Positions 30,254 to 31,900 of a stretch of DNA of 64,000 bases are shown here, piece after piece. The DNA lies in NCBI RefSeq assembly GCF_005943945.1, contig NZ_CP040710.1, positions 3,517,501-3,581,500 of the forward strand, in the 5' to 3' direction. The stretch's first letter is position 1. Each line of letters starts with the position of its first letter. A model generated the notes under the pieces. That model saw only the letters and a list, made by a program, of their open reading frames with translations, did not search any database and was not told where the DNA came from. Source of the DNA: Aggregatimonas sangjinii (lineage in GTDB: Bacteria; Bacteroidota; Bacteroidia; Flavobacteriales; Flavobacteriaceae). Both the position numbers and the translations under genes were made by a program.

Positions 30254-31720
30254 TTAATCGGAGATGTCACCATTTTCGAAGGATGTCTTCAACACGTTTC
30301 TCACCTTCCGCCACAGGTTCTTCGATTCCAGGCTCTGCTGTCCGATATCACCCATAAGGTGACCAAGACCCAGTTCTTGGGTATTTCCATCATGTGGTAT
30401 TGTCAAAACGCCTTCATCCGATATCATGGCCATGTCCCATTCCGTAAAATCCCGTGAAGGCTTCGAACCTTTCCATATCGTCTGCACATCGAAATGTCTA
30501 GAATCTTTCTTTATCTTTTCATAGAGTTCCAGTACGTCCCTTCTAGGCCCCTCGATCAGCTGAAAGAATACATTTCTATGGTAAATCAAGCTCCCCGTAA
30601 TATCTAGGGAATTGTTATTGCTTTTGGAAGTCATAAGGATATCCCCCACGGTCTCTCCATCGACATCTGGCTTGGCCATAGACCGATAGGAAATCTCATA
30701 GAGCAAATTGTCCTTACGCAATGTGTTTCTGTAGTCACTGGGAAGCACCCCGTATCTGTCCTGAAACTGTTTGGAAAAAAAACTTCTGCTCGTATAACCC
30801 ACTTTGTAACAAATCTGGGAAACGTTCATGTCCGTTTCATTGAACAACTCACGCGCACGCTCCAAACGTATGTTCGCCGTATACTTATTGATCGAATGAC
30901 CGTAAAGAAAGCGCACTCCGCTTTGGAGCTTTTTCGGGCTAAGGCCGGTTCTTCTGGAGAGTTCCTTCACGGGTAATTTTTCACCAATATTCTCCTTAAT
31001 GTAATCGCCCATTAAAGCAATACCCGAAAGCTCCTCTTTTGTGAGGTCGGGCTGTAGACTTTCAGTATCTATATCGTGGTCATGCGCCGCTATCTGGGAG
31101 GCAAGCATACCTAAAATTGCCGATTCGACCAGCAATCTGCCGACCAGATCTGTTCTTTTGTTTTTAACGATTCTTTCTGTGTAAAACCCTGTCCTGAAAT
31201 CGATATTACCAAAATACCGGTAGGATTGCTTTGCATTCGCCTCCCCGAATATTTCGGAAAGATGGGCCTTTAATTGCGTCTTGGTATTTGATCTCCGATT
31301 ATCCAACTTGTTTGGCTCAATAATCAAGAAGCAGCTTTCGAATCGGATTTTTCCCGGAATTTTGAACTGTGCTTTGGAGTCGGGTTCGCCGGAGAGTATA
31401 AAATTCTGGCGCTCGCCTATCTTTTTAGCCATGCCCTCGTTCGGAAATTTCGTCATTTGGTACCCGGAGAGATGATAGCCGAAATAGAATAAGCGATTCT
31501 TGGAGAAATTCAGATCGATTGTATAATCTCTGGTAAACTCGATATTGTAAATCCAAGCGGTGAGCCCGGGAAACACCTCGTAAAGGCTAATATAGCCCTT
31601 ACCGTTACCATTGTTCAACGATAGTTTTGCCGCACCGAGATCCTCCAGCAAATCTCCGTTCAGGTTGACAGCAAACTGCCGCAACATTTCCAGTGGGTTT
31701 TTTTCCTTTAAATCCAACAT
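30254..31720 (-). CDS. AraC-family transcription regulator with C-terminal BLUF photosensor domain
   Basis: A 488-residue fusion. Residues 1-230 are an unclassified N-terminal region. Residues about 237-335 are an AraC double helix-turn-helix (LPVKELSRRTGLSPKKLQ, then MNVSQICYKVGYTSRSFFSKQF). Residues about 338-435 are a BLUF domain. The flavin-binding residues of AppA (Tyr21, Asn45, Gln63, Trp104, Met106) correspond to Tyr345, Asn369, Gln387, Trp428 and Met430 with identical spacing. This predicts blue-light control of DNA binding or of a light-regulated regulon. Target genes are unknown. No photosynthesis gene is nearby; the closest neighbour is the pirin and sulfatase cluster on the opposite strand. 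Confidence 0.88.
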   Translation of the reverse strand: MLDLKEKNPLEMLRQFAVNLNGDLLEDLGAAKLSLNNGNGKGYISLYEVFPGLTAWIYNIEFTRDYTIDLNFSKNRLFYFGYHLSGYQMTKFPNEGMAKKIGERQNFILSGEPDSKAQFKIPGKIRFESCFLIIEPNKLDNRRSNTKTQLKAHLSEIFGEANAKQSYRYFGNIDFRTGFYTERIVKNKRTDLVGRLLVESAILGMLASQIAAHDHDIDTESLQPDLTKEELSGIALMGDYIKENIGEKLPVKELSRRTGLSPKKLQSGVRFLYGHSINKYTANIRLERARELFNETDMNVSQICYKVGYTSRSFFSKQFQDRYGVLPSDYRNTLRKDNLLYEISYRSMAKPDVDGETVGDILMTSKSNNNSLDITGSLIYHRNVFFQLIEGPRRDVLELYEKIKKDSRHFDVQTIWKGSKPSRDFTEWDMAMISDEGVLTIPHDGNTQELGLGHLMGDIGQQSLESKNLWRKVRNVLKTSFENGDISD

Positions 31721-31900
31721 TTCTTTTGGGGACAGAGTTCAAATATATTAAAAACAGCACAAAAATCCATTAATATCAATTGATTTAGTATTGCCCTTTT
31801 AACGACTCTCTCTTACGGCGGGCGGGCCTCTCGCTCCTCTTATTTGAAGGGGATTGAATCCATAAAACAAGAAAAATTTCCAATTTATTAGAGATTTTAT

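Follow-up and report, generated by a model that had tools for sequence, protein, structure and literature searches.

One gene in the window, by which we mean the whole stretch of 64,000 nucleotides of the Aggregatimonas sangjinii genome that was analysed, encodes an AraC-type regulator with an apparently complete short BLUF protein at its C-terminus, and this joined form is inherited and kept under constraint. The encoded protein, P0001, is likely a one-component blue-light transcription regulator, as predicted from its sequence and from comparison with its relatives. A photosensor and a DNA-binding domain lie within one chain in 25 distinct fusions, P0001 being one of them, and the architecture is real, conserved and probably functional. 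The sequence-only reading of this DNA had predicted a direct blue-light regulator and, as a prediction, this is supported by the conservation of the flavin pocket, the fixed length of the junction between both domains and the presence of a putative operator in front of the genes of relatives. As far as our literature search reaches, the AraC-BLUF architecture is new, within the known class of one-component blue-light regulators.

P0001 is 488 amino acids long, starts with ATG and is encoded on the minus strand, on which the sequence-only reading was silent (Table 1). The sequence-only reading had placed an AraC DNA-binding domain in front of a BLUF domain, and Pfam confirms both. HTH_18 matches residues 254-332 (E 2.2e-19; 69.9 bits against a cut-off of 33.6), HTH_AraC is found with 31.9 bits against a cut-off of 26.6, and the profile search, which could have missed the BLUF domain, finds PF04940 at residues 340-431 over positions 1-92 of its 92 positions (E 1e-26; 93.3 bits against a cut-off of 25). 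The 25 fusions conserve this order. For residues 1-225 no Pfam family is listed, and EAL, GGDEF or cyclase domains are not found in P0001 at E up to 1, so that the protein is not of the BLUF-EAL or BLUF-cyclase type. The best PDB sequence relatives of residues 237-335 (approximate limits) are AraC-type domains, and the best PDB sequence relative of residues 340-436 is the BLUF domain of AppA (2bun; E 4.2e-13). The five flavin-pocket residues named earlier, Y345, N369, Q387, W428 and M430, are borne out by the letters of the protein and align with Y21, N45, Q63, W104 and M106 of AppA at spacings of 24, 18, 41 and 2.

Table 1. Features of the AraC-BLUF gene; positions refer to the 64,000-nucleotide window.
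Feature	Position	Strand	Basis
AraC-BLUF fusion gene, 488 aa (P0001)	30254..31720	-	ORF and Pfam
N-terminal part, residues 1-225: jelly-roll-like beta domain (about 2-134) and helices 175-215	31046..31720	-	AlphaFold model, Foldseek matches to full AraC-type proteins (low TM-scores); no Pfam family
AraC DNA-binding domain, residues 228-334 (HTH_18 254-332)	30719..31039	-	Pfam, PDB sequence matches, model
AraC-BLUF junction, residues 331-339; P327 to Y345 = 18 residues in 25/25 fusions	30704..30730	-	Alignment
BLUF domain, residues 340-432, with Y345, N369, Q387, W428, M430	30425..30703	-	Pfam, PDB matches, model, alignment
C-terminal helix, residues 466-480; W470 invariant in 25 fusions	30281..30325	-	Model and alignment
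TATATTTG, exact TAnnTTTG match 27 nt before the ATG: candidate -7 element (single short match, weak alone); no direct-repeat operator adjoining	31740..31747	-	Sequence

An AlphaFold model was built from 12 aligned fusions and has a mean pLDDT of 77.7, with residues 442-465 being of low confidence. It displays, in this order, a beta-rich N-terminal domain, helices at residues 175-215, the AraC helices (228-334), the strands and helices of the BLUF domain (340-432) and a C-terminal helix (467-480). The top matches of a Foldseek comparison with the PDB were AraC-type regulators (ToxT, Rns) and the BLUF proteins AppA, PixD and BlrB. A structure prediction had been suggested for residues 330-440, and the predicted fold of residues 340-432 agrees with a BLUF domain; it matches isolated BLUF chains with TM-scores by target of 0.64-0.80 among the matches listed. 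The AraC matches have low TM-scores (0.19-0.38, rmsd about 18), and therefore the relative placing of the domains in the model is not to be trusted.

The sequence-only reading had seen the architecture in a single protein; when Flavobacteriaceae and their phylum are surveyed, it recurs. After removal of duplicates, 25 distinct full-length AraC-BLUF fusions were collected, among others from Aquimarina, Zobellia and Dokdonia; the loci L045 and L050, which are copies of L024 and L025, were left out of the counts. A contig scan with three aligned fusions, using two peptide patterns and thus favouring near relatives, gave 15 loci, 11 of which encode a full fusion. Full fusions are present in Aquimarina amphilecti, A. 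latercula, two uncultured Aquimarina, Zobellia amurskyensis, Z. russellii and a Dokdonia MAG, as well as in two uncultured Flavobacteriaceae and in MAGs labelled Cytophagaceae and Algicola. Among the sampled genomes of the window's family, 11 of 397 carry a full-length fusion (E up to 1e-45) in a total of 14 copies, two each in G203, G377 and G185. The two fusion genes of G185 are arranged in tandem (L099 8402-11500); the pocket of the first is intact (YNQWM), while the second reads YKQCM and is perhaps a blind copy. A sample of 395 genomes of the phylum contained the fusion in three, namely G000 and G185, both already counted in the family sample, and G484, which belongs to a different family of the same class. 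On plasmids, no match to the fusion was found at E 1e-25.

BLUF domains as such are widespread in the family and were found by the PF04940 search in 111 of 299 genomes. Ten frames of more than 300 amino acids contained a BLUF domain among the matches listed; nine of these are AraC-BLUF fusions and one (G283) reads by eye like a BLUF-cyclase. Judged from these sequences, AraC-BLUF is the main multi-domain BLUF form of the Flavobacteriaceae among the matches listed. BLUF followed by a domain that by eye resembles an adenylyl or guanylyl cyclase, an arrangement of a known kind, was seen in L142 3854-4882 (G283) and in L057 2-1054.

Alignment of the 25 fusions revealed that the light-switch residues are strictly maintained. 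Tyr and Gln of the pocket are present in all 25 and Asn in 24, Trp is present in 21, and position 430 is occupied by Met (14 fusions) or Leu (11); one of the four fusions lacking W428 also lacks N369. In 41 BLUF proteins without an AraC part, Asn, Gln and Trp are present in all, and Tyr (with one gap) and Met in 40 each. The invariant Pro327 of the AraC domain and Tyr345 of the BLUF domain are separated by 18 residues in every fusion, despite a mean identity of only 19% over the junction residues 331-339. Between other invariant residues the length does vary, i.e. in the linker between the N-terminal domain and the AraC domain, in one stretch of the N-terminal domain and in the linker between BLUF and the C-terminal helix. 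The mean pairwise identity is 0.435 for the BLUF domain, 0.438 for the DNA-binding domain and 0.331 for the N-terminal domain. A dN/dS analysis found synonymous sites saturated in most comparisons. Trp470 in the C-terminal helix is invariant in the fusions, and the equivalent place in BLUF proteins without an AraC part is occupied by Trp in 27 and by Phe in nine of 41; position 469 is Phe in 34 and position 473 Val in 26 of the 41. These helix residues are common in unfused BLUF proteins as well, so that an AraC protein seems to have acquired an entire short BLUF protein at its C-terminus.

When 66 BLUF domains were placed in a tree, a branch with a support of 92/96 separated the 25 fused domains from all others; of 200 bootstrap trees, 94% recovered it. 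A second tree comprised 83 AraC parts, with three rows left out (one fusion copy cut at the edge of its locus and two that were mostly empty). Here the 25 fusions and four unfused AraC proteins form a clade with 100/100 support, in which the unfused proteins nest among the fusions. A clade of fusions only was rejected (AU p 0.011), in a test that presumes a group named beforehand and with L007 being a long branch. The unfused members are L037, encoded about 54 kb away in the window's own genome, L072, L068 and L007. No BLUF remnants adjoin L037, L105 (=L072) or L106 (=L068), the best tblastn matches having an E of 0.3 or worse. The simplest reading of these trees is one fusion event that was followed by losses of BLUF. 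The AraC part can apparently be useful without BLUF because four AraC proteins of the same clade lack it, and we counted this against our favoured explanation. In G002 (L007/L026), the AraC gene of the clade without BLUF (L026 8895-10360) is followed about 15 bp downstream on the same strand by a short BLUF gene, whose product falls outside the fused BLUF clade. This pair may be a reinvention of the fusion in trans, in a single case.

The upstream regions of the fusion genes contain a candidate operator. When the promoters of three Zobellia-type orthologues were aligned, two copies of ATA(A/G)CGTTAAA were found 19 bp apart, and a Gibbs search in the 150 bp upstream of the 25 fusion genes gave as general form TCRAWWWTGTTAW twice, mostly with a period of 21. 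The tied Gibbs score was 303.7 at period 21, compared with 222.8-279.2 at the other single periods tried (17, 15, 25 and 11). In 16 of 25 fusion genes, the held-out operator score was above that of at least 99% of 147 control upstream regions; close relatives were left out of each matrix, but site positions were found jointly, so that the hold-out is not fully blind. The period is 21 in twelve of these genes, 19 in three and 20 in one. The control 99% level was also exceeded by 13 of 59 unfused AraC genes. As controls served regions upstream of the remaining genes of these loci, from which 20 copies of fusion and AraC genes as well as exact duplicates had been excluded. Counted without a motif, direct repeats with at least 10/12 identities at lag 21 precede 7 of 25 fusions; among unfused AraC genes the count is 12 of 59, and among controls it is 4 of 147. 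In nine of the 25 fusion genes, including that of the window, no operator was recognisable in the 150 bp upstream, nor in 483-500 bp.

Eight of the 16 operator-bearing genes contain a TAnnTTTG-like element with at most one mismatch that starts exactly 20 bp after the second half-site, while every other offset from 0 to 35 has at most one such case. Among these eight genes, three belong to close relatives of the Zobellia type and two to the same genus, which leaves about five independent cases. TAnnTTTG is the -7 element of Bacteroidota. Since the -7-like element lies 20 bp past the second half-site, this half-site would cover the -33 region, which suggests a class-II arrangement and autoregulation.

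The site was also looked for on a larger scale. The complete genome G267 contains a single exact copy, in front of the fusion gene, and two further matches have three mismatches, which gives a total of three and equals that of the reversed control (three). A scan at 16 bits of 39 loci and the 64 kb of the window (795,519 bases) gave 39 matches: 17 before fusion genes, which are the training set, 11 before AraC genes, three before response-regulator genes, one before another gene and seven within genes or before none. An operator in the window was considered and dismissed, as one match at ≥15 bits was found against 0.5 expected and none lies before the fusion gene. With a loose operator pattern, the window's own genome gave four matches, as did the reversed control, and one of them precedes an unfused AraC gene. 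At a total equal to the control level, this genome also contains a direct-repeat site with a score of 22.2 (L229 1501-1534, C1:2054174), about 300 bp before a gene that by eye resembles a membrane transporter.

Two-component genes are common around the fusions. Within 6 kb, histidine kinases were found in 9 of 24 fusion loci and 2 of 40 controls, and response regulators in 7 of 24 and 1 of 40, respectively; since the controls were taken half-way along contigs from other genomes of the family and some fusion loci are near relatives, the p-values of 0.001 and 0.003 are optimistic. Kinases (7/40) and response regulators (5/40) are also somewhat commoner near short BLUF genes than in controls, so that the fusion is not alone in showing this enrichment. 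In the vicinity of fusions, ten response-regulator genes were scored for the repeat over 250 bp, compared with 150 bp in the controls, and those of L048 and L095 and a further gene of L046 exceeded every control. A single-domain response-regulator gene that adjoins the fusion in the Zobellia group has the repeat at about -100, with scores of 23.5 (L048), 12.9 (L046) and 10.2 (L093); the latter two orthologues, with the site at the same position, are reached by 2 and 4 of 147 controls. In G220, the single-domain response-regulator gene that adjoins the fusion has the repeat at -151 with a score of 19.8, and the second response-regulator gene of L046 scores 17.9, the maximum of the 147 controls being 13.6. 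In five of the ten genes, including all four of two phytochrome clusters, no site was found (19 to 124 of 147 controls scored as high).

In these two clusters, L024 3248-10551 (G001, a genome of the window's own genus) and L025 9623-16975 (G003), genes for a bacteriophytochrome kinase, a response regulator, a heme oxygenase, an AraC protein, a second response regulator and SRAP adjoin the fusion, which makes a red/blue light cluster possible. The AraC gene of the G003 cluster has the repeat (17.9), and its kinase, heme oxygenase and response-regulator genes lack it. At the window's locus, no operator was found within 483 bp upstream, the 6 kb around the fusion contain neither a kinase nor a response regulator, and a search of the window's own genome for a phytochrome gave no match; for the window's gene, therefore, only the conclusion at the protein level stands. 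The same genome has two further short BLUF genes and four matches to the FAD domain of photolyases and cryptochromes, one of them barely over the cut-off. A microbial rhodopsin was not found in it, in a search whose control gave no match either.

The sequence-only reading had guessed that the neighbouring pirin and sulfatase genes could be targets, and this guess is not supported. Neither is a recurrent neighbour with a convincing operator: pirin occurs within 6 kb in 1 of 24 fusion loci, that of the window alone, and in 0 of 40 controls, with an operator score of 0.5 that is reached by 51 of 147 controls; sulfatases occur in 3 of 24 fusion loci and 2 of 40 controls, and the two neighbouring sulfatase genes have scores of 9.1 and -0.5 that are reached by 5 and 67 of 147 controls. 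These scores, too, come from 250 bp, compared with 150 bp in the controls. Around short BLUF genes, a homologue of the window's pirin was present in 4 of 40 12-kb loci (L145-L184) and in 0 of 40 controls. Nor is there a convincing general association between genes for short BLUF and AraC proteins (5/40 BLUF loci versus 2/40 controls), although single cases such as G002 exist. In L028 13217-15644 and L027 11144-13567, an AraC gene, a gene of the formate/nitrite transporter family and a short BLUF gene form an apparent operon on one strand; Pfam identifies the transporter in L028 only, and the ORFs of L027 agree with it in order and size. The surrounding region of L028 (1885-18805) contains several AraC paralogues and genes for ferritin-like, DUF2652, DUF2254, hemerythrin, topoisomerase IB, MscS, TrkH and SRAP proteins and looks like a stress island; these assignments come from Pfam on L028, and L027, L033, L035 and L036 are similar by ORF order and sizes.

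In the mechanism that we propose, FAD in the BLUF pocket would absorb blue light, and a Tyr-Gln hydrogen-bond switch would then move the last BLUF strand and the C-terminal helix. This movement would re-orient the DNA-binding domains of a dimer on two direct-repeat half-sites, because BLUF starts about five residues past the last AraC helix and this length is constant in 25 fusions. Where a relative has a recognisable site, its protein would bind two copies of TCRAWWWTGTTAW, mostly with a 21-bp period, directly in front of its own -7 element. Binding might also take place before some neighbouring single-domain response-regulator genes, which would feed light into two-component signalling. As the operator is in a class-II position, the fusion protein is probably an activator of its own gene, and we lean slightly towards light being the ON state. 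That the fusions form a natural family of single-gene blue-light switches, in which BLUF is placed at invariant length C-terminal to the AraC DNA-binding domain, acts through a direct-repeat operator of 21 bp, which at its own promoter is in class-II position and which also precedes some neighbouring response-regulator genes, and couples blue light to two-component and, in two loci, bacteriophytochrome signalling, has in our judgement about an even chance of being correct.

Short BLUF proteins work through partners, as exemplified by PixD, which acts with PixE. BlsA is reported to act with Fur (PMC5955987). By analogy, the BLUF part of the fusion could recruit or release a partner, e.g. a response regulator, without moving its own DNA-binding domain, and the enrichment of response regulators and histidine kinases near the fusions would fit such an action in trans. 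We nevertheless regard it as unlikely, because the length-invariant junction argues for intramolecular coupling and because the operator in front of some response-regulator genes makes these look like targets. The BLUF part might instead sense flavin redox state or FAD availability, or redox and light together, with blue light being secondary in the cell. BLUF proteins bind FAD and AppA integrates redox and light; in addition, four fusions lack W428 and eleven have Leu in place of Met430. Such a redox role is improbable in view of the Tyr and Gln of the light switch, which no fusion has lost, and since the redox part of AppA is a separate SCHIC/Cys-rich region, whereas Pfam gives P0001 no further domain.

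The unfused members of the AraC clade, three of them without an adjoining BLUF remnant, and the changed pocket of the second tandem copy in G185 could also mean that BLUF is a leftover or a mere dimerisation or stability module, and that the N-terminal domain controls the regulator by binding a small ligand. A dispensable module is difficult to reconcile with a BLUF domain that is as conserved as the DNA-binding domain and more than the N-terminal domain, and with the invariant Tyr and Gln, and we consider this explanation very improbable. A one-component blue-light regulator is our preferred reading of P0001.

P0001 shares features with several known systems. AppA of Rhodobacter, the BLUF-SCHIC antirepressor of PpsR, is like P0001 in its BLUF pocket and fold, being its best PDB sequence match and a Foldseek match, but AppA lacks a DNA-binding domain and acts on PpsR, whereas P0001 combines BLUF with a DNA-binding domain in one chain. 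Short BLUF proteins (PixD, BlrB, Tll0078 and those of the Flavobacteriaceae) resemble the fused BLUF with its C-terminal helix, yet they are unfused, and the fused BLUF domains are a clade of their own among the 66 compared. AraC/XylS regulators with the folds of ToxT, Rns and MarA also have an N-terminal beta domain and a DNA-binding domain with two HTH motifs. They bind direct-repeat half-sites about two helical turns apart; a candidate direct-repeat operator, mostly with a 21-bp period, precedes 16 of the 25 fusion genes, that of the window not being among them. AraC proteins usually end after the DNA-binding domain, as do the 58 unfused ones in our tree, while in the fusion the photosensor follows it. 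EL222-type LOV-HTH proteins use another flavin domain than BLUF and also differ in their LuxR-type HTH and domain order. To our knowledge, the BLUF proteins that act on transcription do so through partners. Like P0001, EL222-type proteins combine a blue-light sensor and an HTH in one chain, as described in PMC4844311. The 2014 BLUF survey in section 2.2 of the same paper lists 64% short and 34% EAL-fused BLUF proteins. In Escherichia coli, too, a BLUF protein controls transcription in a heterotroph, as reported in PMC3509220; this system consists of two proteins, in which the BLUF-EAL protein BluF (YcgF) antagonises the MerR-like repressor BluR, whereas P0001 is a single AraC-type protein. No paper on an AraC-BLUF protein was found in our searches of an open-access library, in line with the earlier doubt about any well-described family, and the architecture may be catalogued in databases without comment.

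If our prediction is true, P0001 and its relatives would be the first BLUF proteins that bind DNA themselves, as far as the literature search reaches. They would constitute a light switch that needs one gene, one promoter and only FAD, is amenable to tests in E. coli and might be of use in optogenetics. For the Flavobacteriaceae, in which more than a third of the sampled genomes contain BLUF, the fusion makes it directly testable how blue light is converted into gene expression.
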